NCBI GenBank assembly: GCA_018817125.1
Contig: JAHIUN010000003.1
Span: 1 to 50,592, forward strand
Source of the DNA: Patescibacteria group bacterium
GTDB lineage: Bacteria > Patescibacteriota > Gracilibacteria > UM-FILTER-43-11
Reading direction: 5' to 3'
DNA length: 50,592 bases
Shown here: in pieces, positions 21,596 to 39,302 of the stretch
Numbering within the stretch: the first letter of the stretch is position 1
Layout: each line of letters starts with the position of its first letter
Made by a program: the position numbers and the translations under genes
The notes under the pieces: model-generated
Told to the model about the DNA's origin: nothing
The model's database searches: none
Seen by the model: only the letters and a program-made list of their open reading frames with translations

Positions 21596-22231
21596 TTAAC
21601 TCGGCTGAATCACCACCACCTTGCTGGCATCATCCGGCATTTCACTCCGCTTGACAGTGTAGGTGTCGATCGGTTCACCTAGCTGAGACCCCATCTCTTT
21701 TAAGAAAGTATCTACTGCGTCGAATCCGCATTTAGACCCTTCCGTGTGGTAGGCCATAGGAATAATAATGCGCGGTTCGATCTGTTCCACAACCTCTTTC
21801 GCTTTTTTGGCGTCAATCCCTTCCTTTCCCCCGACCGGAACAAAGAGTATGTCGACATCACCGATCTGGTCGAGCTGTTCAGGGATCAGCTTCGTGCCTA
21901 ATGCTCCCAGATGACAAAAACGGATACCATCCAGATCAAAAATAAAAACCGTATTTTCCTTTTGTTCCACGTCATCCCTGGTGTTGTGAAAAGAGGCAAT
22001 GCCCTTAAAATGAGATCCCGCTGTTTCATATTCTCCAGGCCAATTGAATATTTTTGGCTCTTCGCCAATCACTGAAGAATTGTTGTGATGAGGATCGTTG
22101 TGACTCACGGTCACCACATCGGCTTTTAAGCCCGGCAACGTAAGGCCTGTACTGTCGTCGTAAGGATCCGTCACAACAGTGATATTGTTTTTTACTGAAA
22201 GGCAGGAATGCCCGTGAAACTTTATCTGCAT
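21596..22231 (-). CDS. MBL-fold metallo-hydrolase-like protein
   Basis: 211 aa, about the size of small UlaG-like beta-lactamase-fold proteins. It starts with the typical KFHGHSCLSVKN and continues with TDPY, then VSHNDPHHNN as a variant of the HxHxDH metal motif (the first His pair is spaced H-N-D-P-H-H), GEYE, H-L-G-A-L-G and the late PRIIIPMAYH. The altered motif may change metal content. Cytoplasmic, substrate unknown. It reads toward tRNA-Arg. Confidence 0.85.
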   Translation of the reverse strand: MQIKFHGHSCLSVKNNITVVTDPYDDSTGLTLPGLKADVVTVSHNDPHHNNSSVIGEEPKIFNWPGEYETAGSHFKGIASFHNTRDDVEQKENTVFIFDLDGIRFCHLGALGTKLIPEQLDQIGDVDILFVPVGGKEGIDAKKAKEVVEQIEPRIIIPMAYHTEGSKCGFDAVDTFLKEMGSQLGEPIDTYTVKRSEMPDDASKVVVIQPS

Positions 22232-22320
22232 AATTTTGTTTACGTTAAAAAAGCCTGCTTATTTTACACCAATTTTCTTTAGTGCTCAAGAAGAGACCTC
22301 AATGTGGATTATGCAAGTCG

Positions 22321-22428
22321 TACCTTTTTAGGATTATTAGGACATTGAAGACTATTACGACTATAGGGATCAAATCTAATTCGTAATAGTCTCAAAAGTC
22401 CTAATTTTCTCAATAGCCCTAAAAGGTA
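22321..22428 (-). repeat. Long-hairpin repeat family B, copy 2
   Basis: Outer stem TACCTTTTTAGG/CCTAAAAGGTA (one bulge), then TTAGGAC/GTCCTAA, then AGACTATTACGA/TCGTAATAGTCT (12 bp perfect) around a 20-nt loop. It fills the gap between the end of the surface operon (22469) and the MBL gene, and could also work as a transcription barrier, though no T-run follows. Confidence 0.8.
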
Positions 22429-22468
22429 TGAAAAACAGTGTGGTATAAAACTACGAAATCTATGCGCT

Positions 22469-23473
22469 TTACACCAGAGATAAGCGGATCAGTTTCCAGC
22501 CAAGTAAACTTATAAAGGTTAGTATAAATGCGATGAACATCACTTCGGATGGACCTGTGTCTGGTGTCTGAACTGCTGAAGGGGTAGAGACTTGATACGC
22601 GGGCTGATAAACAGGGGTCGTAACTGACTGCTGGGCTATCTGATAACCGCCAGTCATATTCCGGTTCAGCATTGCCTGTGGTGTGATGGTGACCGTATGA
22701 GTATTGGTACGAAAGCCAGGCTGAACGGCTGGAGGCTGACCGAGTGTTGATGTGGTCGTTACACTTGGTGGCACACTGGTTGTTTCTGAGGCTGAAGGTT
22801 TTAGACCTTCTTCGGCTGCCTCGACCAAATCTTCCATTGTTTTGATATCTTCTTCACGCTGTTTTTGGAGCTGTTCCAATTGCTTATTCAAATCTTCAAT
22901 CAATTTAGCCTGAGTGTCTTCAGCAGAGGTTCCTTCTTCCGTTCCGGCTTCTGTTTCAGCCGCCTCATCTTCGCCTCCCCCTTCTCCTTCGCCTATCGGC
23001 CCAACATCGACCGGTTCAGGCTCTGCGATAGGTTCAATGGCAATACTGACCGCTTCTTCCTTTGGCTGTATTACCGGTTCGGATACATAACCTTCATCAC
23101 TTTCCTCTTCGGCAGGTTCTTCTTCTGTAGCACCTTCTTCCGGAGACAGTTCCTCAACCGTCTCTACGGCACCCCCTGCCGATTCTGCCGTATCGCCGGC
23201 TCCGCCGTCCGGAGACAAGAGGTCGATAGGACTGGCAATAGGGCTTCCCACCCCTTCGGCATCAAACAGACTGCCTTTGATCAATTCATTAAACTGAGCG
23301 GGCGCCATCACCGCGAAAACCGCAATAATCATAATGACAAAACCGACTCCCCAGAATATTTTATTCCGAACCGAATCAGAACTGTCTCCTTTTTGTTTTT
23401 TGCTCATTTTAGAAACAGGAGTGTGAAGGGTCTCCTCGGGGATGGTGATCCAGTTTGCTTGTTTCTTAGCCAT
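22469..23473 (-). CDS. Membrane-anchored stalk protein with acidic linker, coiled coil and C-terminal TGP-type anchor
   Basis: 334 aa. Cytoplasmic N-terminus (1-36, basic), one transmembrane helix (about 37-58), a long Glu/Pro/Gly-rich linker (75-185), a coiled coil (about 190-222, KLIEDLNKQLEQLQKQ), a Thr/Pro/Gln-rich stretch, then TPDTGPSEVMFIAFILTFIS as a second hydrophobic segment with a short basic end. The two membrane segments with an extracytoplasmic loop look like a stalk. Last gene of the surface operon; 38 bp from its upstream neighbour. Function unknown. Confidence 0.75.
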   Translation of the reverse strand: MAKKQANWITIPEETLHTPVSKMSKKQKGDSSDSVRNKIFWGVGFVIMIIAVFAVMAPAQFNELIKGSLFDAEGVGSPIASPIDLLSPDGGAGDTAESAGGAVETVEELSPEEGATEEEPAEEESDEGYVSEPVIQPKEEAVSIAIEPIAEPEPVDVGPIGEGEGGGEDEAAETEAGTEEGTSAEDTQAKLIEDLNKQLEQLQKQREEDIKTMEDLVEAAEEGLKPSASETTSVPPSVTTTSTLGQPPAVQPGFRTNTHTVTITPQAMLNRNMTGGYQIAQQSVTTPVYQPAYQVSTPSAVQTPDTGPSEVMFIAFILTFISLLGWKLIRLSLV

Positions 23474-23511
23474 TTTGATTGAGTATTAAAGTGTTGGTTT
23501 TTAATAAATGA

Positions 23512-24561
23512 TTATTTTTGATTTTTTTTCCGTCCAAAAACTAAAGTCCCGGCCAATCCAGCGGCCGAGAAAACCAGCCAACCGGCCAATGGACCGTTTT
23601 GAGGCTGAGATGGAATACGTGCGGAGACTTGTGATAAGAGTCCTTCGAAAGGTGAGGTTGAGCTGAGAGGCTGATTGACGATAATCCCTACTTCATTACT
23701 GTAATCGCTTTCACGGTTGTATTGATCGTAAGCGGTGACCGCGAAGTAATATGCTTCGTTGTTCATCAAGTTGTCGATGCGGACACTGCCCACATTGTCA
23801 ACCGTCCGGCGGCGGGTATACGTTCCGCTTTGCTTGCCGTAATAAACATTGAATCCAGTGCGAGCCGCGTCTACTTCGGCCTGCCACATTAAATCGACAT
23901 AACCGGATCCGGTATTGGCCTTCAGATTAACCGGACGGGCCATATCCACCGCAAACCCGCCACCGAGATCCGTTGTAGGAGGAGTGGGCTGTGGGGTGGG
24001 TTCGGGCTGAGTGGTGGGGGCAGAACCCGCACCGCTGTTCAGTTTAATCTGGATGCTGTCCGGCGCTTTTGAAAGAATATTGGCTGGAAAGCCCTGATCG
24101 ATGATGTTGACACTGGTGTGTCCTAATTCACTGACCTGATAATCATAAAAACTGATCGTCGTAGTGAATTCATACGACTCCAGTACCTTAAAGCGGACCA
24201 CCGCCACCTTGGTTTCTGTTTCTTTTACTCCGCCGGCAATGTTGGAACGGCCGATCTTTACCCGTCCTTCACCGTGACTGACCTGATCCTCGCCCGGAGC
24301 AGATAGTGTGAACGAAGAAGCACTGCTATCGATATTAACCGCCTCCAATCTGGATGAATCATAGGTAAGCCATGAACGAGCCGAAATCACGCTCTGCTGG
24401 CTGGGATTTTTCAGCACGATATCCACCGTGAATTCATCACCGGTTTTCGCCTCCGTCACGGACGGTCTGAGCTCAAGCGTAGCATCGCTTGCCGCGTACG
24501 CAATCGATATCCCCAGAAAAAGGAGGGTTAGAATGGCTAATTGTTTAAGTGCTGTTTTCAT
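23512..24561 (-). CDS. Cell-surface cohesin - fibronectin III protein
   Basis: 349 aa from ATG at 24561 (MKTALKQLAILTLLFLGISI, signal peptide); an upstream frame to 24618 would hide the signal. A cohesin-like domain covers about 24-175 (ATLELRPSVTEAKTGDEFTV in form, then W-L-T-Y-D and the closing HTSVNIIDQGFP). A Pro-rich linker leads to an FN3 domain (about 210-300; YVDLMWQAE, AYYFAVTAYDQYNRES). The end NGPLAGWLVFSAAGLAGTLV plus RKKNQK is a membrane anchor. Cohesins bind dockerins, and dockerins occur in three proteins of this operon. Confidence 0.8.
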   Translation of the reverse strand: MKTALKQLAILTLLFLGISIAYAASDATLELRPSVTEAKTGDEFTVDIVLKNPSQQSVISARSWLTYDSSRLEAVNIDSSASSFTLSAPGEDQVSHGEGRVKIGRSNIAGGVKETETKVAVVRFKVLESYEFTTTISFYDYQVSELGHTSVNIIDQGFPANILSKAPDSIQIKLNSGAGSAPTTQPEPTPQPTPPTTDLGGGFAVDMARPVNLKANTGSGYVDLMWQAEVDAARTGFNVYYGKQSGTYTRRRTVDNVGSVRIDNLMNNEAYYFAVTAYDQYNRESDYSNEVGIIVNQPLSSTSPFEGLLSQVSARIPSQPQNGPLAGWLVFSAAGLAGTLVFGRKKNQK

Positions 24562-24684
24562 TTTTATGAATTTAATTTTTGAATTTTTGTAATTTTTGAA
24601 ATAAATTCTAATTTCCAATTTTTAATGTGTTCATCGGCAATGTGGTCGTTTGGCTATTTGGGATTTGGATATTATTTATAAAAA

Positions 24685-25281
24685 TTACTTTTCAATTATA
24701 AGAGCCGGACTATTCGGTCTTTTAAGAATGTTATACGGCTTCCCCTCAATAACACTGTTGGCAGAGGTGTGGCCGCTCAAGTCATCTTTATAGTCGTACA
24801 CATCAATCATCGTGGCACCTTCGCCTTTTATATCGAAGACCACTTCAGCCACTTTGATGGTTTTGTCAGTCAGCGGATCGGGATTAGCACGCCCCAGCAT
24901 GACTAAACCGTTTTCGTTATCGAAGGTGTTATCGTAAGGAGCAATGAGCGAAAAGGCGGAATCACCTGTTTTGATCTCTTTACCGTACAAACGGCTCGGG
25001 TCAAAACTAAGCCAGCTCTGCACCGATGTCACCAGTTTGTTTTCCGGATTGTTCAGCGTTACTGTGACGGTCACTTGCCCATTTTCCCGTTCAGCTTTAA
25101 ACGCCAGATTAATACTCTTTTGTGCCGCACGAGCGGTTTCAACCACTTTTTCGATATTGATTTTAGGAGCGGCTGACTGAGTCGCTTCAGGAGCTTCTTT
25201 TGGGAGCAGAGCGCATCCGTTCAGCAAACTCGTAAGAGTGAGAATGAGTGCTGTTGCGATGAGAATATCTTTTGCTTTCAT
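24685..25281 (-). CDS. Cohesin-domain lipoprotein
   Basis: 198 aa. Signal peptide with lipobox LLNGC (Cys23). The rest is one cohesin-like domain resembling that of the next gene: VTVTVTLNNPENKLVTSVQSWLSFDPSRL..., ENGLVMLGRAN, and YDYKDDLSGHTSANSVIEG. The shared W-L-x-x-D-x-S-R-L and GHTS motifs show the two are paralogs. As a lipid-anchored single cohesin it is a natural base for docking dockerin proteins to the membrane. Confidence 0.8.
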   Translation of the reverse strand: MKAKDILIATALILTLTSLLNGCALLPKEAPEATQSAAPKINIEKVVETARAAQKSINLAFKAERENGQVTVTVTLNNPENKLVTSVQSWLSFDPSRLYGKEIKTGDSAFSLIAPYDNTFDNENGLVMLGRANPDPLTDKTIKVAEVVFDIKGEGATMIDVYDYKDDLSGHTSANSVIEGKPYNILKRPNSPALIIEK

Positions 25282-25350
25282 GGTGGGGAGTTAGTGGTTA
25301 TACAGATGCAATCACCATCGGTGATTGCAGGCGCGGTGACGTCACCGCGC

Positions 25351-28300
25351 TTACAGAACAGGTTCGTTATGAGGGACAAGAGAATCAGGATCGGGCAGAA
25401 TAGGGTTTAAACCCTGAGCATCGGCGCCTCCTGCATTGATAAATACCTGTCCGTACACAGATGAGAACATCGTGAAGTCGATAAAATCCACTTTGCCGTC
25501 ACCGTTCAGGTCGGCCGCATTGCTTAAATTGGCCTGCTGGATCGCTTTGAGCTTAATGGCTTTAAAGAATTTAGCGACCGCGGATTTTAGCTTGATGCCG
25601 GCGGCCGACGCGATGTCTTTGATCTGAAGCTGATAACGCTGACCGGATTTCTGCTGTTCTGTTTTGATTTCGAGCAACTTGCCCGATTCAATGAAACGGA
25701 CGGCCTTTACCGATAATGGAATGGACGTTTCGCTTTCAAGGATTTCAATATCATACTCATTCTGCCCTTCTCCGGTTTTTACACTGGAGGGGCGGAGGTT
25801 ATCCTGGAATTCCACTTCCACAGTATCAACATCCGTCGCAGCCACGTAGTGGACCACAGGCGGTTTTGCGCTCTCTTCAAAACCTTTGAAAAAGGTACGG
25901 CTGGTCTGTCCGGGCACCAATGACACACCTGAAATATCGGTGAGCTGATTACCGGCACTCAGCATATATTCTTTGCCTGGCTCCTGAGCAACGGTCGTTA
26001 CCGTCACCACATCACCCGTGGCGCTGATGGTCGCGCCCAATACATTCAAAGCCTGAGAAATATCGTTACGGGCGGTGACCACAAAATCATTACCATTGGC
26101 GGACAGAGATAAAGGCGCCATCTCTTCACTGAACACCACTTCTACAGCGGTTTCGCTCACCGGAACGGCAGCAATCAGCTGAGGCGGACGACTATTGTCG
26201 GCAAAGCCTTCGCTGTCGCTGACCAGTACGCGGATCTTTCCGCGTGCGGTCTTGCCGGATAAATCCGTGGCGATGACTTCGATTTCATACGGCTGTGAAC
26301 TGGAAGGTGTATTGGAAGAAATCACGACATCAGGAAGAATAAACCATTGGCCGTCACTGCCTTCTTTGAAACTTGGCTGCATACACACAATGGTGTTGGA
26401 GCCCGTTGGGCAGGTGGCCTGAGGATTCCCGCCAGCCGGAGGCTGAACGATCGGAGCGTTGTTCTGGATTTGAAAATCAGCAGGGGCTTCCGCACCGACC
26501 TGACCCACACTGCTCAAATTAACGACAACGGAATCCAGATCATCATCGTCATCACGCACAAAGGCGTATAAGGTAACGGAGGTCTGGCCGTCATTTTTCG
26601 CCAATTTCGGATTGGTGTAGGCTTTATCAGAGAAGATCAGCGGTGCGTCTCCCAGCATATCTTTTTCGGTCACATCGACCTGCAAGATAATACTGCCGGT
26701 TCCGCCGCCCTGATCGGTCGCGATCACTTCGATCTCATGCACTCCCATCGGGGTAATGCGTGGAATGGTGATATCCGAGGAAGAATAAAGCGCTTTCTTC
26801 GCGTTTTCGGACGCGTTCGGATCGCGGAGCAATGTGACCGGAGAAAGCCCTAAAGTACCAAAATACGCGTTGACTGTGTCGATATCCGCGACTCCGTTCG
26901 GATCACCGACCATCACGTGGATGGAGAATGGTGTCTTGTCGTCTTTCGGAACGGATTTCCGGGGACCGATGTAACTGCGGGCCGGGTCGATGGATGGACC
27001 CGTAAGCGCTGTGGACACATTGAGATTGATTTCTGCTATCGAGCTTTCCCCTGTCGTATCGCTCGTGCTGACAGTTAAAATATAATTCTTTTCCTGCGTG
27101 GCTTCCGGAACGGTGAAGGTATCGGAGGCATACCAGCCGGTGACCTGTTCATCGGCCTGGCCGGCCACATCAAGTTTGTTCAAACTGATAAAGCCAATGC
27201 CCAAGGGGCCCAGATCCGCCACCACGGAAGTGATGGTGTTGGCGCCATCCGGATCAGTGACTTTGGCGGAAATCGTGACTTCCGTTAAGCCATCCGGCGG
27301 AACAGTTCCCGGATTGACGTACACCTGATCAAAAACCGGTGCTACGCTGGCGAGAACATCCCGAGTGACGTAAAGGGAAACCGTTCCCTGAACCGCTTCC
27401 GCGCCCTTCTTAACTTCCACAGCTAACTGATAAGGTTCGTCCTGAGTCGGAGTGACCGGATTAACCGTGGTGGTAAAGGTGTAATATTGTTTAAAACGAG
27501 GCTGTAAGCCTGTGTCTTTTTCCATTTCCTGAGCGCGGTTGCCTCCGATCTGCTCGAGGTCGATGGCCACGCTGTCCACATTGGCCAGATCCAGCGGATC
27601 TTCCACCTGTACCCAGAAAGTAATCTCGGTTTCGCCGTCCGGCGGAACGCGATTCGGAATGGCGCGGGAGTTGTCGGAAACGATGCGCATCGGCTGTTCG
27701 GGGATGGTTACCGCAAGCGCCTGTGGCAGCATCTCGGTTTCACCCGCCTGGTTGACCAAGGTAAGATTATAAATATCGGATTCAAAGCCGGCTGGTACAA
27801 TCAGGCTCAGCGCGCCTGCAGTCTGTTCGGTAATGCTGATGACCGTGTTGCCCAAACGAGCCTCCACGATGGTGTCGAGATTTTCACCCAGCACCACGAT
27901 CACCTGATCCACTTCGTTACTCACGGCATTCGGGGTGAGATTGCCGATGCGGACGGGCGGAACGGTGTAACCGAAGAAATTCAGCACACGGGTATTGCCG
28001 AGCAGGAGTCCTCCCTCATCTTTTACACCGGCAAAGCCAACAAAATAGTTGGCGTCGGATACCTGATTATTCGTTGTAAGGCGAACCGTGCTTTCGTCGA
28101 CCATCTCCACAGCGGTAATGGTAAGCGGTTCAGTGCCCCCCTGTACGAACCGTTCAATACGGATATTGATCGGTGTGACGGTATTGGCAGTCAGATTTCC
28201 GGAGAAATGGAGCATCAGTTCAGTGCTGGAATTCACATCGATGGAGTCCAGCTGAACATCGCTCTGACCGGCGAGTGTCTGGTAACCGGCAAACGCGCCG

Positions 28301-30534
28301 GCGTAAGGGGTAAGTGTTTTGCCGCCAAAGAACGAACGTACTCCGCCCGGACCGGTGTCAGTCTGCACCACATAAACCTGCCCGGCATTCATATCGCCGC
28401 TTAAACTAAGAAGCACCTGAGTAAATCCAGGCTGGACGGCAACAGAATCGATAGAAAGTCCGCCATCGATATCAAACGCGTTAGCGCTGATGGTCGACTG
28501 ATCGATATTTCCTGAAAAAGTGACCATCACTTTATCTTTTTCCGTCGCCTGGGCACTGACCATTTCAAACGTTTCAAGCGCGAAACCGCCTACCCCCATA
28601 GAAGGATTGGCGCCCACGCGAACCAGATAATGGTTTTCAGGGTTAAACGCCTGGCTGGTAACAATCACTAATTTTCCTTCAGCGGTCACCGACACATCGG
28701 AAACCGGAAGGATGGTTTTATTTAAATTGTCATCATAACTCATCACCTGAACGTCTCCAGCGTCCACCGCCGCGAAGGCCACGGTGCCGGGGCTGATCTC
28801 GATGGTGTTTTTACGGGTAACTTCAATGGCGCCGATTCCATTCGGCCCATTCACACTGCCGTATTCCCATACACCGGCGCGGTTGTAATCAGGGTCAACG
28901 GCCATATCGCCGTTCCCGACGTTGGCATTTAAAATAACTGTGTAATTCATCTCATTGCCATCAGGGCTGTTTAAAGCCTCGAGGCCTGCAACGGTAATCG
29001 TGCTTCCGCTGACGGTGTAATCTGCTAGTGGTGCCACGCTCACACTTTGGCCGGTGACCACTATTTCGCCGATAACACCATTGGCAACTATATTTTCATC
29101 GAACGTAAGTGATAAATTCGCATTATCAGTAAACACGGCTTCGAGCAATCGCGGGCCGTTTTTATAACCGCTTACCGCAATCTTAGAAACACCGACGACT
29201 TCGTTATCACTGGCTCGTTTAACGGCGTCATCCACTGTAACAATATAAGTATTCCGCTTTAAAAGCGCATTATTCACCGTCAGTTCCACGCCGTCATCAT
29301 TCGCGGTCGCGACAAGAACCGGATTGCCGGCTCCGCCCGCCACCTCGACCGTGAAGCTATCCGCGCTCACAGACGCGACTTCTACAGGGTCACTGAAGGC
29401 GATTTGTATTTTTTTATAAGCGGTTGCCTGAGCACTCAGCATATTAAAATCACTAAGACCTGCAGGCGCCTGGCCGAAACCGAAATAACTGGCTTGGCGA
29501 TAATCATCATCCAATGGCCCATCCACATTCCCTTTCACTTCATTGCCCATTACGCAAAGGAGATAAGGAACGCCCGGATTCTGAGCAGCAGTGGTGAGAA
29601 CCACGGTGCTCTGGTCGTATCCCTGATTGAATCCGCTTTCCACATTTGAGGGGTGAACGGATCCGTTACAACCGTCTAAAAAGTAATCAAGCGGTTCAAA
29701 ACCCGGCGTGCCGGTTTGGCTGAGCAGGTCGGAAAAACGAACAAGTACATGGGTGCTGTCGAGCGCTTCCGCGTTCAGCACGCGCAGATCTGCCTGAGTG
29801 ATGAGGTTGATGGAACCCGCGTCGATGGCGTCAAAATAATCACTGACCACAAACTGGTTATTGTCTTTTATGACCACTTCTACATCACTTGCTTCCATGG
29901 TAATGCTACTGCCGGCGGGACCGCTGACATCCACATTTAATTTAAATAAAGTTATGTCGTTGGCATCCACTACCGCGCCATTATTAGAGAAGAACGAGAG
30001 GATTACCTGGCCGGGTGTATTGGTATTCACCCCTTTTAGATCCGCGGACTGAAAAGCGGTAGTCTGGTCAAACACAATGGAGTTCTCGTTAAAGGTCATA
30101 GCGTTTACCGGCTCATACTTTACAGTGAACTGCATGCTGTGGATCTGTTCAGAGTCGCCGACATCCATTCCTTTTGTTTTGACCGCGATATTTCCATTGT
30201 CGCCAGGGGCGGCTTCGTAATTCGGAATGTAAAGTTTCGCTCCGCCCGCCGGCAATTCTGCAAGTTCTGTAATCGCGGCCCGGAATATCTGAGGATTGGT
30301 ATAACCCACATAACCCACACCCGCCAAAACCAAAGCGAGTAAGCTAAACATGGTGTACTGCAACCATCGTTTTTTCGGACGCGCTGTTTCTGCCTGAACT
30401 TCAGGTTCAGCAGAGGCCTCGAGAGGCATCTCGGTCTGCGCCTGACTCTGAGGAATGTTTTCCTCTTGCGGAGCGTCGTTCGGAACCGGCATCGGTTCCT
30501 GGTTAAGATTTGTGTTTGGGTTTTCGTTTTCCAT
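25351..30534 (-). CDS. Giant membrane-anchored cohesin / Ig-like / dockerin protein (1727 aa)
   Basis: Cytoplasmic acidic N-terminus (1-50), transmembrane helix (about 58-77), juxtamembrane IFRAAITE, then a cohesin-like domain (about 98-245; KLYIPNYEAAPGD start). A series of Big_5/SbsD-like Ig domains follows (to about 860; motifs VRFSDLL, IAFSDPV, LTFDENI, VTFSGNI), then an IPT/TIG-like domain (about 875-960), several domains starting PPDG-x-T-E or KDDK/KNDGQT (to about 1440), two more Big_5-like domains, and one dockerin half with DLNGDGKVDFIDF at 1675. The second EF-hand half is absent. It should project far from the cell. Confidence 0.82.
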   Translation of the reverse strand: MENENPNTNLNQEPMPVPNDAPQEENIPQSQAQTEMPLEASAEPEVQAETARPKKRWLQYTMFSLLALVLAGVGYVGYTNPQIFRAAITELAELPAGGAKLYIPNYEAAPGDNGNIAVKTKGMDVGDSEQIHSMQFTVKYEPVNAMTFNENSIVFDQTTAFQSADLKGVNTNTPGQVILSFFSNNGAVVDANDITLFKLNVDVSGPAGSSITMEASDVEVVIKDNNQFVVSDYFDAIDAGSINLITQADLRVLNAEALDSTHVLVRFSDLLSQTGTPGFEPLDYFLDGCNGSVHPSNVESGFNQGYDQSTVVLTTAAQNPGVPYLLCVMGNEVKGNVDGPLDDDYRQASYFGFGQAPAGLSDFNMLSAQATAYKKIQIAFSDPVEVASVSADSFTVEVAGGAGNPVLVATANDDGVELTVNNALLKRNTYIVTVDDAVKRASDNEVVGVSKIAVSGYKNGPRLLEAVFTDNANLSLTFDENIVANGVIGEIVVTGQSVSVAPLADYTVSGSTITVAGLEALNSPDGNEMNYTVILNANVGNGDMAVDPDYNRAGVWEYGSVNGPNGIGAIEVTRKNTIEISPGTVAFAAVDAGDVQVMSYDDNLNKTILPVSDVSVTAEGKLVIVTSQAFNPENHYLVRVGANPSMGVGGFALETFEMVSAQATEKDKVMVTFSGNIDQSTISANAFDIDGGLSIDSVAVQPGFTQVLLSLSGDMNAGQVYVVQTDTGPGGVRSFFGGKTLTPYAGAFAGYQTLAGQSDVQLDSIDVNSSTELMLHFSGNLTANTVTPINIRIERFVQGGTEPLTITAVEMVDESTVRLTTNNQVSDANYFVGFAGVKDEGGLLLGNTRVLNFFGYTVPPVRIGNLTPNAVSNEVDQVIVVLGENLDTIVEARLGNTVISITEQTAGALSLIVPAGFESDIYNLTLVNQAGETEMLPQALAVTIPEQPMRIVSDNSRAIPNRVPPDGETEITFWVQVEDPLDLANVDSVAIDLEQIGGNRAQEMEKDTGLQPRFKQYYTFTTTVNPVTPTQDEPYQLAVEVKKGAEAVQGTVSLYVTRDVLASVAPVFDQVYVNPGTVPPDGLTEVTISAKVTDPDGANTITSVVADLGPLGIGFISLNKLDVAGQADEQVTGWYASDTFTVPEATQEKNYILTVSTSDTTGESSIAEINLNVSTALTGPSIDPARSYIGPRKSVPKDDKTPFSIHVMVGDPNGVADIDTVNAYFGTLGLSPVTLLRDPNASENAKKALYSSSDITIPRITPMGVHEIEVIATDQGGGTGSIILQVDVTEKDMLGDAPLIFSDKAYTNPKLAKNDGQTSVTLYAFVRDDDDDLDSVVVNLSSVGQVGAEAPADFQIQNNAPIVQPPAGGNPQATCPTGSNTIVCMQPSFKEGSDGQWFILPDVVISSNTPSSSQPYEIEVIATDLSGKTARGKIRVLVSDSEGFADNSRPPQLIAAVPVSETAVEVVFSEEMAPLSLSANGNDFVVTARNDISQALNVLGATISATGDVVTVTTVAQEPGKEYMLSAGNQLTDISGVSLVPGQTSRTFFKGFEESAKPPVVHYVAATDVDTVEVEFQDNLRPSSVKTGEGQNEYDIEILESETSIPLSVKAVRFIESGKLLEIKTEQQKSGQRYQLQIKDIASAAGIKLKSAVAKFFKAIKLKAIQQANLSNAADLNGDGKVDFIDFTMFSSVYGQVFINAGGADAQGLNPILPDPDSLVPHNEPVL

Positions 30535-30563
30535 GATAAGGGGGGTTGGTTTTGGTTTTTGGG

Positions 30564-32243
30564 TTAGTTTTGTTGAGTGATTTGATGAAATAAGAGAACG
30601 ACATCAAACAGGGTAACACCTCCCAGGCCATCCATGTTGGCGGCCTGAAATTGGTTGTCAGTCGGATTCACTTCGCCGTTGGCGATCTGAAAAGCCAGCG
30701 CCACGTCTAATGGCGAGAGAACACCATCACCGCTCACATCACCCGTAGCCGGCGCGCCTATATATATAGGTAGAACCGCCGTGGCCAATCGGCCTTCGGT
30801 ATCGGTGATCTCGAGCAATAGTTTGTACGCGCCATCCGTCAGCTGTCCGTTTTCCGGCACATCCACATTGATGCTATAGACTTTGAAATACTGAAGGACA
30901 CCTTGTGCCTCGCCTTCCTGCGCCTCCGCGTTGATAGCGGAAACTTCGTTCGCGGTGAACGGATCGGTGGTGAATACCACTTTATTCGCATCATTGTCGA
31001 TCTCATTATAGGTATCGAACTGTGAACGGACGATGAGTGTGCGCATATCCTGAATGTCAGAGACTTCGTTCGCATCGCTTACTTTCACACTCAGATTCAA
31101 CCGGCCGCCCCGTTCTTCCGTGGCAGAGCCGATGATGCGCGCGTATTCAATGAGCGGACCCGCCGGTACATTGACGGAAATCGTGTTACTGCGGACAATC
31201 GAGTCATCCGGGCGCTGAGCTTCCACAAACACTTCGGCCATTCCCGGCACATCGCCCCGTTCCAGCCGCCCGGCGGCCAGGGCCGCGTCGTTCAAACGGT
31301 TTACGGGTTCGGCGATCCAGGTGACATCACGGAAATTAAGGACTTGTTCAGTAGTCCCTCCAGCGCCGTCGTCAAAAGTACCGGTTGCCACCATACCAAG
31401 ACTGTCGGTAGGATGAACCGTTACCGCGTCTTCACCGGGATATTCTTCGACTTCCAGACCGATGCTAAGCAAGCTATCAAAAATATTCAGCACACAATTC
31501 GGAAATCCTGTGTACCCACTCGCACACGTGCCGCACGCCGGCCCTCCATAGCCCTGTTCACAAACACAATCGCCGGTGTTCGGGTCACAATCACCATAGT
31601 CACCACAATCCACATTAGCGCACTCATCGACTTCTTCATCTGCAATAATGGTAATTTGACCAGTACCGATATAATTAATCGTATTAATGACCTGGGCTTG
31701 GTCATTTTTGGCTTCGACCAAAATATTTGTGATATCGGTTGAATAACCTTCCGCTAAACCACCACGAACGCTGAATTTTAATTTAAATAAGGTATCGCCG
31801 ACTACGGTAACGGCCGGACTAAGCGTTACGATCTGGACTTCTAAGCGGTTGGTATCCGCATCTTCTTCCACGATTGTGCATTGGCTGATCATCGGACTTG
31901 CTATCTTTGTGCCGCTGAAACTCATACAATCATCAGCGTTGAAAGTAAGATCATCAGGGTTATACCAGAAATGAGCCTGAAGTGATAAAACCACATCGCC
32001 AATCCCGCTTCCCCCCACCATTACCGAAACGGTATCCGTCGTCTGGGGTGAATGGGCTGTGTAGTTATCGGGAATGTAGAGGACATTGTTGGTATTGCTC
32101 GGATTCCCTACCTGAGTCAGCTCCGCTTTAAACAAGCTGGTATCGCGTGAGGCGAAATAGCCGACTAGGGCGATTCCGATAACCACAACCACCCATAATA
32201 GGATGCGGATTAAATGATGATTTTTATTGACTTCTTCCTGCAT
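30564..32243 (-). CDS. Membrane-anchored cohesin - EGF - dockerin protein
   Basis: 559 aa. Transmembrane anchor (about 12-30), juxtamembrane SLFKAELTQVG, cohesin-like domain (about 53-200; VLYIPDNYTAHSP start, ends INTINYIGTGQITI), an EGF-like unit (about 210-250; CANVDCGDYGDCDPNTGDC and CGTCASGYTG), Ig-like domains, and a complete two-part dockerin at 501-559 (DVSGDGVLSPLDVALAF and NMDGLGGVTLFDVVLLF). Having both a cohesin and a dockerin, it could chain head to tail. Only 29 bp precede the next gene. Confidence 0.85.
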   Translation of the reverse strand: MQEEVNKNHHLIRILLWVVVVIGIALVGYFASRDTSLFKAELTQVGNPSNTNNVLYIPDNYTAHSPQTTDTVSVMVGGSGIGDVVLSLQAHFWYNPDDLTFNADDCMSFSGTKIASPMISQCTIVEEDADTNRLEVQIVTLSPAVTVVGDTLFKLKFSVRGGLAEGYSTDITNILVEAKNDQAQVINTINYIGTGQITIIADEEVDECANVDCGDYGDCDPNTGDCVCEQGYGGPACGTCASGYTGFPNCVLNIFDSLLSIGLEVEEYPGEDAVTVHPTDSLGMVATGTFDDGAGGTTEQVLNFRDVTWIAEPVNRLNDAALAAGRLERGDVPGMAEVFVEAQRPDDSIVRSNTISVNVPAGPLIEYARIIGSATEERGGRLNLSVKVSDANEVSDIQDMRTLIVRSQFDTYNEIDNDANKVVFTTDPFTANEVSAINAEAQEGEAQGVLQYFKVYSINVDVPENGQLTDGAYKLLLEITDTEGRLATAVLPIYIGAPATGDVSGDGVLSPLDVALAFQIANGEVNPTDNQFQAANMDGLGGVTLFDVVLLFHQITQQN

Positions 32244-32255
32244 GGTTTAAGAAGG

Positions 32256-33713
32256 TTATTGCTGTTGAGATAAATAAAGGGCGACAAGCGCGACGATGTC
32301 ATCAAAATCAATGTCACCATCAGGCGCGCCCTGTGGGTCGATGTCATAACGAAGCATATCTGCCTGCATCGGATCTAAGTTACCAAGGAAAAGGGCTATC
32401 CCCCGAACAACATCATCAAAGGTATAAATTTGTACATCCACCACCTCCGTCTCCTCACACGCGTCCCCTCTTGCATCACCATAGGTATCGGCTTGGTCGG
32501 GATTGGCGACGTCGGGACAATTGTCGTTACAATCAGGCGTTCCATCAGCATCGTTGTCGATGTCAAAAATTGCACAGCCGCAGATGCCTGGTTCAGTTTT
32601 GTAAAAATCATCGGGGCAGCCATCATTACAATTCGGAATTCCATCGCCATCGTTGTCATCATCCGGGATTCCACAGCCACAAACACCTGGTTCGGTTTTA
32701 TTGGGATCATTGGAGCAGTTATCATTACAATCTAGTATGCCGTCACTATCAGTATCCATTTCAGGGATACCACAACCGCAGACACCTGGCTGAGTTTTCT
32801 GGTCATCATTTGGACAAAAATCGTTACAGTCAGCTGTTCCGTCTTCATCAGTGTCTGTATCGGATTCACCGCAGCCGCAATCGCCAGGTTCGGTTTTATT
32901 GGGATCATTGGAGCAGTTATCATTACAATCTAGTATGCCGTCACTATCAGTATCCATTTCAGGGATACCACAACCGCAGACACCTGGCTGAGTTTTCTGG
33001 TCATCATTTGGACAATCATCACAAGCATCGCCAAAACCATCATAATCGAAATCAGCCTGATCCACATTGGCGACAACAGGACAGTTATCTTCATTAGCAC
33101 AAAGTCCGTCCCCATCCGCATCATTACTCCGGTCATAAGGACATTCATCACAGGCATCCCCTTCCCCATCTCTGTCCGCATCGCTTTGATCTTCATTGGC
33201 AACGGAAGGGCAATTGTCCGCATTGGCACAACGGCCGTCTCCGTCATTATCATTTAAACGGTCATCGGGACATTCATCGCAGACATCACCAATATTGTCC
33301 CCATCCCTGTCGGATTGATCAGGATTGTAGTTAATATCACAATTATCCACATTGGCGCAGCGACCATCGTCATCCGCGTCATCATTACGATCATAAGGGC
33401 ATTCGTCACAAACATTACCCAATCCATCGTTATCTGAATCGAGCTGGTTAGCATTCGCATCATACGGACAATTATCATCTCCGTTCGCTATTCCATCTGC
33501 ATCCGAATCCATTACCGGAAGATCGGGATCAATTGGTAAACCACCTACATCCTCATCATCCACTGGAGGAATATAGGCCCGGTACAGGATAGTGTCTTCA
33601 CGGCCATTGAACAGAAACACTCCACCGACCAGCAGGACAGCCATGGCCATCAGCAAGGTGTATTTACTGATTACTTTGATGCCATCCTTTGGTTTAAGAT
33701 TTTCGTTTTTCAT
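32256..33713 (-). CDS. Thrombospondin type 3 repeat protein with dockerin-like end
   Basis: 485 aa. Transmembrane anchor (about 16-36), juxtamembrane DTILYRAYIPP, then about a dozen TSP3-type calcium-binding repeats: the first set reads DxDxDGxxxxxDxCP, the second carries TQPGVCGCGIPEMDTDSDGI-type units. The C-terminus (about 426-485) has two dockerin-like helices (YTFDDVVRGIALFLG and DGDIDFDDIVALVALYL), the second after a D-x-D-x-x-G loop. TSP3 arrays are rigid, calcium-loaded spacers on surfaces. A 4-nt gap follows the YidC-like gene. Confidence 0.85.
   Translation of the reverse strand: MKNENLKPKDGIKVISKYTLLMAMAVLLVGGVFLFNGREDTILYRAYIPPVDDEDVGGLPIDPDLPVMDSDADGIANGDDNCPYDANANQLDSDNDGLGNVCDECPYDRNDDADDDGRCANVDNCDINYNPDQSDRDGDNIGDVCDECPDDRLNDNDGDGRCANADNCPSVANEDQSDADRDGEGDACDECPYDRSNDADGDGLCANEDNCPVVANVDQADFDYDGFGDACDDCPNDDQKTQPGVCGCGIPEMDTDSDGILDCNDNCSNDPNKTEPGDCGCGESDTDTDEDGTADCNDFCPNDDQKTQPGVCGCGIPEMDTDSDGILDCNDNCSNDPNKTEPGVCGCGIPDDDNDGDGIPNCNDGCPDDFYKTEPGICGCAIFDIDNDADGTPDCNDNCPDVANPDQADTYGDARGDACEETEVVDVQIYTFDDVVRGIALFLGNLDPMQADMLRYDIDPQGAPDGDIDFDDIVALVALYLSQQQ
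32689..33014 (-). repeat. 128-bp direct repeat inside the TSP3 gene
   Basis: Bases 32689-32816 recur at 32887-33014 without a visible change, 198 bp apart, encoding the NKTEPG / TQPGVCGCGIPE units. Identity at DNA level implies a recent duplication or conversion within the array. Confidence 0.8.
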
Positions 33714-33717
33714 AAAA

Positions 33718-34794
33718 TTAATCCAGTTGGGTTATTTCGACCACGGCCTTAGCGGGATGTGTCTGATGCTGAGCCATGTATTGATCACTGTTTTGAAAGG
33801 CACCGAAAAAGCTAAGCGCCAAAAGCAGACCGAGGGTCATAGAAAGGCTTTCTTCCAGTAAATTGAAATTGATGTGGCGCACAATAGGGATGTGATTCCA
33901 CAGGCGGGAAAAGTATTGGAAGCGGTCTTTATGAGGGCCGGCCTCACGCAGCATCTGTATGAGTTCACGCTGGGCAAACTGCCCCCATTTCCGTGCGTGC
34001 CGTTCCACCACGATGTAACGGACGGTGGCGAAAGCGATCAGCGTGATGAAGTAAACGGTGAGCGCCGTGGCAAACACACCGGCAAACACATAAACGATTA
34101 CCGTCCCGATTACCGCGAACAAGGCTCCGATGGTGGTCTGAGCGGAACTGATGTAGTCTTCTCTTTGTTTAAAATAAAGCTTGGTGCAAGCGTGGGCAAA
34201 GTAAAGCAGGCTGGCGGTCAGCGGTAACGCGTAAGTAACTGGAGGTGTGAGTAAACTGAAATTCAGAATGCTCCAGGAGCCGGTGAGTAAACCGGGTGCT
34301 TTTACCATGAGGTTCAGACCCCAAAAAGTGAAAAAGAAAAGAGCCATCTGAATCATCACTATGGTGGCACCGCGATGATGGATTTTTTCGTTCACGTCGT
34401 AAAGCTTATGAAGTTCGTCTTCAGTCTGACTAACGGATAGTTCGCCCTTGTTGAAACGGTCCACTAATTTTTTATGAAACAGGTGGATCTTTTTTTGTTT
34501 GAGCTGAATACGAAAGCTGGGATAAAGAAGAACCAGTTCCACCGAAAGCGCTAACAGGATGATGGAAAGCAGAACGCTTTTACCAGTTACTGTTAACAAG
34601 CTGTTCATGATCACCACAAACAATTTAGCCACCTCCGCTTTAAAGCCGGAGTAGATCAAAGGACTGGCAGAAACTCCGTGAAGCGTGCCTTCTACCGGCG
34701 CGTTCAGCAGTGATGCATTCCCCTGTATAAAAGCTAGGTAAACGCTGAGTGCAAAGAGACCAAGGGTGGTGAAAATTAATCCGAATCGTTTCAT
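33718..34794 (-). CDS. YidC/Oxa1-like divergent membrane protein heading the surface operon
   Basis: 358 aa. N-terminal helix, a short outside segment, then the YidC-like order: TM (SVLLSIILLALSVELVLLYP), a charged cytoplasmic hairpin (KQKKIHLFHKKLVDRFNKGE...DELHKLYDV), TM (TIVMIQMALFFFTFWGL), and further TMs (THE rest to about 270), a cytoplasmic segment and a last TM near the end. YidC inserts proteins into the membrane. Similarity is in topology and hairpin pattern rather than strong sequence motifs, so this is a probable paralog. Being first in an operon of anchored surface proteins, it may be their dedicated insertase (inference). Confidence 0.6.
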   Translation of the reverse strand: MKRFGLIFTTLGLFALSVYLAFIQGNASLLNAPVEGTLHGVSASPLIYSGFKAEVAKLFVVIMNSLLTVTGKSVLLSIILLALSVELVLLYPSFRIQLKQKKIHLFHKKLVDRFNKGELSVSQTEDELHKLYDVNEKIHHRGATIVMIQMALFFFTFWGLNLMVKAPGLLTGSWSILNFSLLTPPVTYALPLTASLLYFAHACTKLYFKQREDYISSAQTTIGALFAVIGTVIVYVFAGVFATALTVYFITLIAFATVRYIVVERHARKWGQFAQRELIQMLREAGPHKDRFQYFSRLWNHIPIVRHINFNLLEESLSMTLGLLLALSFFGAFQNSDQYMAQHQTHPAKAVVEITQLD

Positions 34795-34839
34795 GTGTGT
34801 TTTTGTTTTTGTTTAGTTTTTTTCTGTTGTGATTCAAAA

Positions 34840-34946
34840 GGGAAATTTGCTTCCCGATTGCAACCTTCAACTTCGTTCAGGTCACATCGGGATCCTCACT
34901 TCACAGCGACCTTCGGTCTTTGCTTCGTTCGGAACGCATTTCTCGC
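34840..34946 (-). repeat. Structured repeat family A, copy 3
   Basis: Read on the minus strand: closing stem GAAATGC with GCAAATTTC, hairpin 1 GACC-GAA-GGTC (34918-34908), hairpin 2 CCCGATGTGACCT/AGGTTGCAATCGGG (34891-34879 with 34866-34853). It shares GCGAGAAAT, CGTTCCGAACGAAG and GAAGTGAGG with copy 1. It lies in the predicted 5' leader of the surface operon, starting about 13 nt after the expected transcript start. Confidence 0.65.
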
Positions 34947-34965
34947 TTCTTCTTGAAATCTTAAT

Positions 34966-34994
34966 ATTATAGCAAAATTCCTCTGATTTATCAA
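34966..34994 (-). promoter_or_regulatory. Sigma70-type promoter of the surface operon
   Basis: On the minus strand TTGATA (34994-34989), a 17-nt spacer, and TATAAT (34971-34966). It is the best promoter upstream of 34794 and would give a leader of about 165 nt that includes the family-A element. Confidence 0.7.
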
Positions 34995-35330
34995 TTCGTT
35001 GAAATTGACACATCTTGTATTTATGGTGGTCAAAAAACAGTCAGGCAAAATCACATTATTTTTTATTTTTGATCCGGCTTTTTTAAAATCCATTATTTGA
35101 CAAAAAAATCCTGCGTTCAGACTAGCGGTTTTTTGGCCAACTATTGTTTGACATATTTTAAAAGTGTGAAGTCTGTTTTTTGTTTATTTAAAAGGAAAAA
35201 ATGGGGAACATGAAAAAATATTTTTGTAAAATAATCTTGTGCAATAATCATTCTGCCGGATCACGGAACCAGTTCTTTTTTTTACGCTGTAATGCCTTCT
35301 TGCTGTCGTCTTTTTGCTGTGTAGCTGAAT

Positions 35331-35360
35331 GGCTATCTTTTGACTGACCAAAAGATAGCC
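35331..35360. repeat. Perfect 11-bp hairpin
   Basis: GGCTATCTTTT pairs exactly with AAAAGATAGCC around an 8-nt loop. No T-run follows on either strand, so it is not a simple terminator. Confidence 0.6.
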
Positions 35361-35372
35361 GAGAAAAGTCAC

Positions 35373-35441
35373 CCGGGGGATCACGAACCCAAATCACCAC
35401 TGTACCTTATATCATCCTCTCCATAGGCGTGATCCCCCCGG
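35373..35441. repeat. GC-rich stem with a 42-nt loop
   Basis: CCGGGGGATCACG (35373-35385) pairs with CGTGATCCCCCCGG (35428-35441), one base bulged. The loop contains no obvious second stem. It follows the hairpin at 35331 by 12 nt, so the two may form one structured transcript or a mobile remnant. Confidence 0.5.
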
Positions 35442-35621
35442 ACCCCCCTGTGCCTTATGTCTTTGTTCTGCCATGAAAACGTCGGGGCTGTATTGCCGTA
35501 CCGAGCCTGAAAGATGAGACTAGGGGGGTTAAAAAACAAACAACAAAAAGGAACAACTTACAATGATTATTGGGCGGGATAAAAAGGACAATAGTTTGGG
35601 GTAGATTTTAGACAAAAAAAA

Positions 35622-35630
35622 TGGTATAAT
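35622..35630 (+). promoter_or_regulatory. Extended -10 promoter of the T4SS pilin operon
   Basis: TGGTATAAT with no good -35. Start near 35637 leaves about 16 nt before the ATG at 35653 and no Shine-Dalgarno. Confidence 0.55.
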
Positions 35631-35652
35631 ATTAAGATACTTTTACAACTGA

Positions 35653-38148
35653 ATGAAACCTCTTTCCCATAAAATCATCGCCACTCTTTTTATCGCCCTC
35701 ATGACGTTCGGTGTTTTAGGAATCGGACAACCGACTTTGGCGCAAGAGGAGCCAGCGGTAACCGGCGGAGATCCGGCGCTGACGAATTTATGGGTCATCA
35801 ACTCGACCCCGGCCCCGGGTGGACTGGTGGATTTTACGGTTTATTTTACCAATCTTGGAAATGTGACAGCAACGGATGTGGCACTTCGAATCGATTATGA
35901 CGAAACTCAGCTTTTCAATCTTTCCGTCGGCAGTCCGATCGACTGCCGTGATAACGGCGACAGTATTATCTGTAATTACATCAGTGTCGATTCCGGGGCC
36001 TCGGGTACGGTCGGTTTTACCGCACTGGTAGAACCCACAGTCGCCCCCGGCACAGAAATCATCACCACCGCGTCTATCGACGCCAATGAAAATGATTTGA
36101 TCCGGAATGACTTTGGGAATGTGGTGGTCACCGTCGGCGCCGCCGGAGCTGGCGGAATGATGGTTCCTACTGGATTTTCCGGTACGCCGATTGCCGATTT
36201 TGAGACTGGAACACTGGAGACGCCCTCCGAAAATCAGGGAGTCGCCCTGTTTAATGTACAAAACAATCCCAACTGGAGCACCAGCGCGCTGACCACTGCG
36301 GGCCTCAAGTTTATGATCCGCGGAAAGGAAGCTTTGGCCTGGTCACTGAATATTGAGGAGGCCGGTTTCGACAGCCCTGCTATCCGCGCCAGTTACAACA
36401 AAGTGCTGACAGTGATCAATAGTCTGTTTATTGTCGGCTTACTCGCCATCGCGGCCATGTGGATGTTCAGCCTGTTTATTCCCCGTCGGTATTTACGGCA
36501 GGTAATCCTGGTGTACGCGCTGGCGGTGGTGTTTGTGAATTTTGCTTTTCCTTTAAACCAGCTGTTTATCGACGGAACCAACTTGCTCCAAAAGTCCTTT
36601 TTAAGCGGTGTGAATATCAGCAATATTGCGGAGACTCCCAGCTATAATGACCAGACGGCCATTGGTTATCTGGATGAAACAAATGTTTTAAAACAGACTA
36701 ATACTCAGACACTTAATTTTAAACTGCCTCAGGAGAACGAGGCGATGAGCGATGTGGTGATCGGTAAACTGCAACAGGACTTTTTGAGCCCCAGTTATAC
36801 CGGCACGCTGAGCTATCTGGATGAAGACGGTCAGCCGAAACAGGAGACGGTAACGCTTCGCGCCGCCGGCAATGACCCGCTTCTTCGGCTGAACGCAGAT
36901 CAGACGATCGAATTAGTGAATGAAAAAAAATTCAATCCGGATCAGGAAAATTCTATTTTCGCGTTCCTGCTTATGCTGCTCACCGGCCTGGCTTATTTGG
37001 GAATGGCACTGATTTTTATTCTGCGTATCGTGTTTTTATGGGCGCTTCTTATCGTATCGCCGATACTCTTTTTACTAGCGATCTTCCATGCCACCCGCAG
37101 TTATTTCATCAACTGGCTCGGCGTATACGCCCGATGGTTACTGATCGGACCCCTGATGGCATTGGGGCTTTCCATTGTAGTGGGTATCTGGAAAACGGTG
37201 GGCCTTCCAATCATCAGCAGTTACCAGAGCATCGCGCAGTTCGGCGGACTATCAAACATCGGTTTTTATCTGCCGGGAAGTGATGTGGTGAATAATTTAA
37301 GAACCACTTCACAAATGATGCAGTACTTTTTATTCCTCATTATGCTGTATCTGCCGATTTTCTTTGCGCTTATGCTCACCCGCCAAAAACTGTGGAATTC
37401 GGCGGCCATGGCGGTCGCGGAAAAACGGGAAGCCCTGAGAACGCCATCTGTCGCATCGACAATAACGGAAAAAGAAACTATTGAAACTGAAAAAGGGATC
37501 GCACTACCGGAAGGAATCCGTGGCCTTTTAGGCGGTAAATTCGCCGGAAAAACCACTATGCCCGAAACCCTAAAGGCTGAAGAAGCTCGCACCCTTCGCC
37601 CCATGGAAACCGCCAGCAGTTTTTTACCTGAACACCTGGCGCTGAGCGGGATGCGGGATATGCTGGGATTAGTGGCCGGCAATAAAGATTCACGTCATGT
37701 ACATGGAGATGCCATTGAAAAAATGGCCAATCCTGCCAGTATTACTGATAATAAAGAACAGCGGAATGTTATGGCTGTCCGGCAGGAAATCGAAAGCCGG
37801 GCGAGTGGAGGCGACCCGGAAGCAACACGGATCATGAGTGAAATAAAGGAAGTGGAGACCCAGACGTTTACCGAAAAAGAAACGGCGGCCGGCGAACCGA
37901 TAATGGTGGAACCGATGATGGAGGTGAATGTGACGGCGCCGAAGCCGGAAAAAGAAATTAAAAAACCCGAACCAATGCCAACAGCCAAAAAAGAGGAATT
38001 AATCGGGGAAGAATCTGAACAGCCTGAACCCGACGATACGGCGAAAACGCAAGATGACGCCGTAGAGACGGATCATGATCCGTCTCAGGAGGATGAAAAA
38101 AAGGACGACAAATCAACTGATAACCCCCCTGATGCTGATGAAAAATAG
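35653..38148 (+). CDS. VirB6/TrbL-like membrane protein with DUF11-type ectodomain
   Basis: 831 aa. Signal peptide (to about residue 30, ending LAQEE). A DUF11-like Ig domain (about 38-165; TNLWVINSTPAPGGLVDFTV in form, LGNVTATDVALRIDY). Then membrane helices at about 255-275 and 280-305, a loop, and a cluster of helices (about 430-580) typical of VirB6/TrbL channel proteins. The cytoplasmic tail (about 600-831) is charged and ends in an Asp/Glu/Lys-rich stretch. Followed by pilin genes (11-bp overlap with the next), it is the probable membrane channel of a type IV secretion or DNA-uptake machine. Confidence 0.7.
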   Translation: MKPLSHKIIATLFIALMTFGVLGIGQPTLAQEEPAVTGGDPALTNLWVINSTPAPGGLVDFTVYFTNLGNVTATDVALRIDYDETQLFNLSVGSPIDCRDNGDSIICNYISVDSGASGTVGFTALVEPTVAPGTEIITTASIDANENDLIRNDFGNVVVTVGAAGAGGMMVPTGFSGTPIADFETGTLETPSENQGVALFNVQNNPNWSTSALTTAGLKFMIRGKEALAWSLNIEEAGFDSPAIRASYNKVLTVINSLFIVGLLAIAAMWMFSLFIPRRYLRQVILVYALAVVFVNFAFPLNQLFIDGTNLLQKSFLSGVNISNIAETPSYNDQTAIGYLDETNVLKQTNTQTLNFKLPQENEAMSDVVIGKLQQDFLSPSYTGTLSYLDEDGQPKQETVTLRAAGNDPLLRLNADQTIELVNEKKFNPDQENSIFAFLLMLLTGLAYLGMALIFILRIVFLWALLIVSPILFLLAIFHATRSYFINWLGVYARWLLIGPLMALGLSIVVGIWKTVGLPIISSYQSIAQFGGLSNIGFYLPGSDVVNNLRTTSQMMQYFLFLIMLYLPIFFALMLTRQKLWNSAAMAVAEKREALRTPSVASTITEKETIETEKGIALPEGIRGLLGGKFAGKTTMPETLKAEEARTLRPMETASSFLPEHLALSGMRDMLGLVAGNKDSRHVHGDAIEKMANPASITDNKEQRNVMAVRQEIESRASGGDPEATRIMSEIKEVETQTFTEKETAAGEPIMVEPMMEVNVTAPKPEKEIKKPEPMPTAKKEELIGEESEQPEPDDTAKTQDDAVETDHDPSQEDEKKDDKSTDNPPDADEK

Positions 38149-38719: not shown

Positions 38720-38724
38720 ATCGA

Positions 38725-38801
38725 ATTGTGGCTCGAATAATTGGCCGAATTGTGGACCGAATGGTGTTAACTACTATACGAGCCACGATTCGAGCCACAA
38801 T
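38725..38801 (+). repeat. Long-hairpin repeat family C, copy 1
   Basis: ATTGTGGCTCGAAT (38725-38738) pairs exactly with ATTCGAGCCACAAT (38788-38801). Between them further GTGG / CCAC pieces (AATTGTGGACCGAATGGTG) make a modular, imperfect inner stem. It separates two pilin genes and may attenuate or stabilise the message. Confidence 0.6.
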
Positions 38802-38821
38802 GCGCTCCACTATACGTAACT

Positions 38822-39184: not shown

Positions 39185-39242
39185 TAGGTTACGATTAAGA
39201 AATAAATATGAGAATTGTCCATATTTTTTTTATATTTACCTC

Positions 39243-39270
39243 TTGTACAATTGTTACAAACTTGTATAAT
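39243..39270 (+). promoter_or_regulatory. Promoter for the last pilin gene
   Basis: TTGTAC (39243-39248), a 16-nt spacer and TATAAT (39265-39270). Leader about 26 nt. Confidence 0.6.
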
Positions 39271-39302
39271 TTTTTTGAACAATAAAAAGTAGCAACCACC
39301 CG

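Follow-up and report, generated by a model that had tools for sequence, protein, structure and literature searches.

Cellulosome adaptor scaffoldins combine cohesin and dockerin in one chain, and non-cellulosomal cohesin and dockerin modules, which Peer and colleagues reportedly described from bacteria and archaea in 2009, are long known but still lack a clear role. In anaerobic methanotrophic (ANME) archaea, single proteins combine one dockerin with several cohesins (PMC9012536), and giant open reading frames (ORFs) with dockerins are proposed as adhesins in Omnitrophota (PMC10066038). In Candidatus Southlakia epibionticum, the dockerin protein SEML1_0315 and the FN3 protein SEML1_0890 are needed for growth, with host-glycan binding proposed by the authors for the dockerin protein (PMC10633639), and the Peribacteria genome paper describes large exported proteins and a sortase, leaving cohesins and dockerins unmentioned (PMC4736985). 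Our literature search, to which subscription papers were mostly closed, returned no account in Patescibacteria of the cohesin-dockerin module described here. This module is a seven-gene operon within a 50,592-nucleotide stretch of DNA (the window), which corresponds to contig C9 in the draft genome (1.03 Mb in 17 contigs, 88.7% complete) of an uncultivated ultra-small Peregrinibacterium (Patescibacteria). We consider the operon, with a probability of roughly 60%, to encode a cohesin-dockerin complex of non-cellulosomal type that belongs to the cell envelope and serves both structure and adhesion.

The operon comprises seven minus-strand ORFs running from 34794 to 22469 with intergenic gaps of 4-69 bp, and the sole 11-of-12 promoter-like site in the interval 22000-36000 lies just upstream of the first gene. 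Given the short gaps and this lone site, the seven genes probably form one transcription unit. Export and membrane or lipoprotein signals of the operon proteins were judged from sequence alone, and the Pfam cut-offs are 24.1 bits for PF00963 (cohesin), 22.9 bits for PF00404 (dockerin) and 35 bits for PF02096. The features are as follows.

34966 to 34994, minus strand: putative sigma-70-like promoter, 11 of 12, with an extended -10, ahead of the first gene (promoter scan)
33718 to 34794, minus strand: YidC/Oxa1-like membrane protein, 358 residues, first gene (PF02096, 27.9 bits)
32256 to 33713, minus strand: thrombospondin type 3 repeat (TSP3) protein, 485 residues, N-terminal membrane segment (PF02412, 63.5 bits)
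about 32259 to 32426, minus strand: degenerate dockerin-like C-terminus of the TSP3 protein (8.2 bits with a dockerin profile)
30564 to 32243, minus strand: 559-residue double-ended protein with N-terminal membrane segment, cohesin, EGF-like and Ig-like regions and dockerin
31629 to 32126, minus strand: cohesin domain of the 559-residue protein (A2 profile, homology to the giant's N-domain, A7 profile)
30579 to 30743, minus strand: two-repeat type I dockerin of the 559-residue protein (orthologue profile, 98.5 bits)
25351 to 30534, minus strand: 1727-residue giant with N-terminal membrane segment, cohesin, Big_5 (PF13205, 58.8 bits) and other Ig-like repeats, and half a dockerin
29785 to 30282, minus strand: cohesin domain of the giant (fold and homology)
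25468 to 25536, minus strand: single dockerin F-hand repeat of the giant (PF00404 positions 29-51)
24685 to 25281, minus strand: cohesin lipoprotein, 198 residues, lipobox LLNGC (PF00963, 33.3 bits)
24784 to 25080, minus strand: cohesin domain of the lipoprotein (PF00963)
23512 to 24561, minus strand: cohesin-FN3 protein with signal peptide (PF00963, 40.7 bits; fn3, 23.9 bits), likely starting at the ATG at 24561, with a TTG start listed at 24618 (ORF 23512-24618)
24139 to 24456 and about 23701 to 23934, minus strand: cohesin and FN3 domains, respectively, of the cohesin-FN3 protein
22469 to 23473, minus strand: two-membrane-segment protein with a cytosolic WITIPEE motif, an acidic/coiled middle and a C-terminal tail, conserved beside the cohesin-FN3 gene within the family and, in the form of HPxWxxT...QPETG proteins, in a sister family

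A sequence-only reading of the window had placed cohesin-like domains in four of the seven genes, and all four are supported as cohesins, two by Pfam and two by profiles, relatives and fold. The cohesin lipoprotein and the cohesin-FN3 protein, both recognized in that reading, score above the PF00963 gathering threshold, and the N-terminal domains of the 559-residue and 1727-residue proteins gave no match in the Pfam scan of the window proteins. Orthologues of these N-domains were aligned for the giant (A1) and for the 559-residue protein (A2); the two families are homologous to each other with 99% probability (hhalign), the top solved structures for the A2 profile are cohesins (6kgc, E = 2.7e-4; 6kg8; 5aoz; 5m2o), and a joint profile of both N-domains returns two cohesins only. 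A further profile, A7, matches the cohesin of the 559-residue protein at 1.5e-45. At the equivalent N-terminal position of sister-family giants, PF00963 scores 26.9 bits in G064, over the cut-off, and 23.5 bits in G018, and the A2 profile matches at 4e-14 (L089) and 5e-11 (L115), where G numbers denote genomes of relatives, L numbers their loci and C numbers contigs. The AlphaFold2 model of the giant's N-domain, built from a four-row alignment, is of low confidence, with a predicted local distance difference test score (pLDDT) of 47; a Foldseek search with it returned cohesins at each of the first 17 places (E = 3.5e-3 to 0.13), and the non-cellulosomal Archaeoglobus cohesin 2xdh is among the fold matches. 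The first 24 VIA-align rows are likewise cohesins (Z 7.0-7.6), and since the next, unrelated row has a Z of 6.9, these scores by themselves would not decide the identity of the domain. A full model of the 559-residue protein (two-row alignment, pLDDT 32) gave no meaningful matches in the fold search and was set aside as uninformative.

When the N-terminal cohesins were compared directly by hhalign with the two operon cohesins that Pfam accepts, no score was significant (probabilities of 0.4-3.5%), which indicates that the four cohesins lie far apart in sequence and that the membership of the N-terminal pair depends on profiles from PDB structures, relatives and fold. Single matches to PDB profiles can arise by chance at about 3e-4, as seen when the profile of an accepted cohesin (A4) matched the GTPase Der at E = 3e-4. 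We trust the A2 result because several distinct cohesins align over the whole domain and independent lines agree.

The three dockerin or dockerin-like ends of the earlier reading become, on profile evidence, one complete dockerin, one half and one doubtful case. The C-terminus of the 559-residue protein scores below the PF00404 cut-off (17.6 bits in the window scan, 21.4 in the genome search), although its orthologues reach 47.8 bits, and its score with the orthologue profile compares with 7.7 bits for the best of 454 scored shuffles. Both F-hand repeats align with those of the orthologues, among which the calcium-loop pattern is conserved, so that the predicted domain has the two repeats of a type I dockerin. 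In the giant, a single F-hand repeat, DLNGDGKVDFIDFTMFSSVYG, precedes a tail of about 30 residues; the repeat scores 21.2 bits with PF00404 and 39.5 bits with a profile built from giant dockerins of sister families. One repeat is found in the window and in the orthologues of its own family, f1 (family labels are from a genome-set comparison), and two at L043, L089, L041 and L115; with only half a dockerin in f1, the docking ability of the giant is doubtful. The TSP3 C-terminus is marginal, at 8.2 bits against 5.0 for the best shuffle, and has no Pfam match.

The claim of two double-ended proteins therefore holds for the 559-residue protein, which joins a cohesin to a complete dockerin, and only in part for the giant, whose cohesin is joined to half of one. 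Such proteins might chain head to tail into a fiber on the cell surface, with the cohesin lipoprotein and the cohesin-FN3 protein as its caps; the make-up of the 559-residue protein favors this, as do sister-family giants having both domains at or near Pfam level (dockerin 28.3 bits, together with its neighbors, beside the cohesin already given for G064, and 26.3 bits in G018). We nevertheless consider a polymer unlikely, and the giant's half dockerin is one reason. The cohesin lies only a few residues past the N-terminal membrane segment, and a retained segment would prevent chaining; with uncleaved anchors, the double-ended proteins would be membrane-rooted arms with dockerin tips and not free polymer units. 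Furthermore, orthologues of the 559-residue protein at L030, L031, L032 and L039 match only from residue 272, with the dockerin kept and the N-terminal cohesin unmatched, and G007, G009, G015 and G017 have only one A7 match each. Retention of the dockerin without a matched N-terminal cohesin in several f1 genomes makes chaining unlikely as the conserved function.

With respect to conservation, the f1 gene order (YidC-like gene, one or more dockerin proteins, giant, cohesin lipoprotein, cohesin-FN3, two-membrane-segment protein) recurs at L027-L040, complete or up to the end of the contig, and the giant orthologues share the architecture of the window's giant. The operon core is retained in other families at L043, L089 and partly L041, and of 288 genomes sampled from the class, 84 contain a match to the cohesin-FN3 profile. 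Among named relatives, the Candidatus Peregrinibacteria metagenome-assembled genome (MAG) JAFGCR010000007.1 is nearest; it was the sole near relative from the related-locus search, and its cohesin lipoprotein is 86% identical to that of the window.

In the sister family f5, three genes make up the core: the first encodes a dockerin and a membrane segment, the second is the cohesin-FN3 gene, and the third encodes a membrane protein that starts with HPxWxxT and ends in a QPxTG tail. At 27 of 29 loci, the cohesin-FN3 gene is immediately preceded by the dockerin ORF in the same orientation; at a 28th (L126), the distance slightly exceeds the gap limit. The minimal form is a membrane dockerin of about 108 residues, and the ORFs are mostly about 105-155 codons long, with little else in the protein besides the dockerin and membrane segment, and their dockerins fit the lineage of the 559-residue protein (17-47 bits) and not that of the giant (-1 to 13 bits). 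Most f5 genomes have one cohesin of the cohesin-FN3 kind, and those with a dockerin match mostly have one, so that cohesin and dockerin would pair by elimination. With one dockerin nearly always beside one cohesin, pairing is the simplest reading of the f5 core, and the dockerin of the 559-residue protein probably pairs with the cohesin-FN3 protein in the same way. The third f5 gene carries the TG-motif tail at 17 of 29 loci by a strict pattern; as a separate observation, at L078:7865-8857 and L081:8320-9150 it has, by eye, a cupredoxin-like stretch (PGDTITWINQQDIPHYL) that is not in the window's version.

These neighborhoods also bear on the idea that the domains are mere Ig-like bricks of long adhesins, in which cohesins and dockerins pair no longer. 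The dockerins are indeed degenerate in the giant and the TSP3 protein, and the giants consist mostly of Ig-like repeats. We find the idea improbable, in view of the f5 arrangement, the conserved calcium-loop pattern among orthologues of the 559-residue protein and a cohesin-dockerin adjacency far above chance: of the 64 dockerin sites recorded across 98 relatives, 28 have a cohesin match no more than 10 kb away, with about 1.2 expected. Among 380 genomes sampled evenly from the phylum, 112 (29%) have a cohesin match and 149 (39%) a dockerin match, and outside the class both occur within 10 kb in at least 19 genomes (19 of the 26 with both, among the matches listed). Counts for the joint occurrence of cohesin lipoproteins and double-ended giants (21/3/4/70) are subject to confounding by clade and come from genome sets that are not identical; we do not use them as proof of a second pair.

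Other arrangements are seen outside the class, where G352:C27:5559-17341 holds a run of dockerin proteins ending in a 945-residue frame with two cohesins and a dockerin, and G454:C48 has a 1465-residue frame with many dockerin repeats. In G028, G027 and G092, cohesin or dockerin matches read through in-frame TGA codons, which suggests that some families in the class have recoded TGA.

As the sequence-only reading had stated for glycosidases, no recognized catalytic domain was found in any of the seven operon proteins by Pfam scan. Dockerin matches in the genome at E ≤ 0.001 are confined to two operon proteins, neither with an enzyme domain (one extra match, at E = 0.03, looks like chance), and PF00963 matches are likewise confined to the operon. 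At the sensitivity of Pfam, the operon was thus rightly called self-contained in this genome; in G001, a genome of the same genus, additional cohesin and dockerin genes occur elsewhere (C11, C41), so that self-containment is not a fixed property. A cellulosome-like scaffold, with cohesins holding dockerin-bearing hydrolases encoded at other sites, would draw on the same domain families as cellulosomes, and Cloacimonadota MAGs do have dockerin enzymes with a scaffoldin (PMC8542988). We regard it as very improbable here, given where the genome's dockerins are found, the absence of enzyme domains in those dockerin proteins of relatives that were scanned, and an operon with one cohesin per protein in which no tandem-cohesin scaffoldin or carbohydrate-binding module was found. 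By domain content, this 88.7% complete genome shows neither the dockerin-bearing enzymes nor the tandem-cohesin scaffoldin with carbohydrate-binding module of a cellulosome, and its operon falls among non-cellulosomal cohesin-dockerin systems, with export as predicted. Since the operon has no enzymes and relatives keep a minimal version with a single clasp, the probable task of the clasp is to build or anchor the cell surface, and not to digest plants.

The proposed envelope complex would have two receptors, the membrane-anchored cohesin lipoprotein, whose lipobox is conserved in orthologues, and the exported cohesin-FN3 protein, held by a C-terminal tail that resembles a sorting signal (QPQNGP, a hydrophobic stretch and RKK). 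The two-membrane-segment protein ends comparably in PDTGPSE with a hydrophobic and basic tail; both motifs are conserved, the genome encodes one sortase (56.6 bits), and the two proteins are putative sortase substrates. The 559-residue protein, rooted or exported via its N-terminal membrane segment, would present its C-terminal dockerin to the cohesin-FN3 protein, so that calcium-dependent binding would connect a membrane-linked arm with a partner attached to the wall or surface. Length and further contact sites would come to the scaffold from the giant and the TSP3 protein. The f1 operon would then be an elaboration of an f5-like core, with a longer dockerin arm, the giant, the TSP3 protein and a second cohesin on the lipoprotein.

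Several points weigh against this proposal. We infer adhesion from architecture and lifestyle only, both AlphaFold2 models (the giant's N-domain and the 559-residue protein) have the low confidence given above, and the second calcium loop of the window's 559-residue dockerin is degenerate (NMDGLGG). The N-terminal membrane segments may be either cleaved or kept as anchors.

The first gene product falls below curated cut-offs, including that of TIGR03592 (26.4 versus 84.3 bits) as well as PF02096, and is at most a divergent YidC/Oxa1 relative; a YidC-like gene also leads the operon at the loci of relatives. The TSP3 protein matches the model of the myxobacterial cell-cell cohesion protein MtsC with 127.8 bits (cut-off 350), a match that probably arises via the calcium-binding repeats. 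Upstream, the operon is flanked by genes of a type IV secretion system (T4SS).

35653 to 39995, plus strand: TrbL/VirB6-like protein (with DUF11 domain) and three VirB2-like T4SS pilins, divergent neighbor

At all 10 f1 loci whose contig extends there, the window included, the TrbL-like and YidC-like genes are transcribed divergently, and the genome encodes a VirB4-type ATPase on a different contig (C10, 379 bits). A 2025 survey found VirB2-like pilin arrays to be widespread in Patescibacteria and detected no PrgB-type adhesin there (PMC12102498). The operon, divergent from the VirB6-like gene and its pilins, might be a surface adhesion apparatus that acts together with the T4SS and stands in for the missing adhesin, with the clasp as a general envelope device of Patescibacteria; we put this forward tentatively, as a rather doubtful extension. 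Elsewhere in the window, 17466-20758 and 14253-17466 hold tandem cysteine-rich paralogues of about 500-565 residues that begin like MKNCKNCNTGFQITD; two that were scanned (544 and 505 residues) had no Pfam match, and similar genes recur near the operons of relatives, e.g., at L027 and L029. The gene at 43158-45407 encodes a protein that combines S-layer homology domains with a trypsin-like protease domain.

Compared with described systems, the operon shares the cohesin fold and the type I dockerin with cellulosomes and differs from them in having no enzymes, carbohydrate-binding module or tandem cohesins. It resembles monoderm T4SS adhesins of the PrgB type in gene setting, with surface adhesion genes beside T4SS genes. 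Omnitrophota are likewise ultra-small bacteria with giant surface proteins whose dockerins are proposed for adhesion, although the part of that report drawn on here, unlike the present locus, gives no cohesin partner or operon (PMC10066038). Ca. S. epibionticum provides another case in Patescibacteria of dockerin or FN3 domains on envelope proteins, and our results suggest that dockerin proteins of Patescibacteria may have a cohesin partner in the same cell, instead of or besides a host glycan (cf. PMC10633639). Finally, like the known non-cellulosomal modules, these cohesins and dockerins occur in organisms without cellulose degradation; here, they come with no ABC-transporter or enzyme cargo and with putative lipoprotein and TGP-tail anchors, in a conserved operon and as a minimal pair of adjacent dockerin and cohesin genes across many Patescibacteria. 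The retention of an apparent minimal set of one cohesin and one dockerin in adjacent genes of genomes of about 1 Mb makes both pairing and function directly testable.

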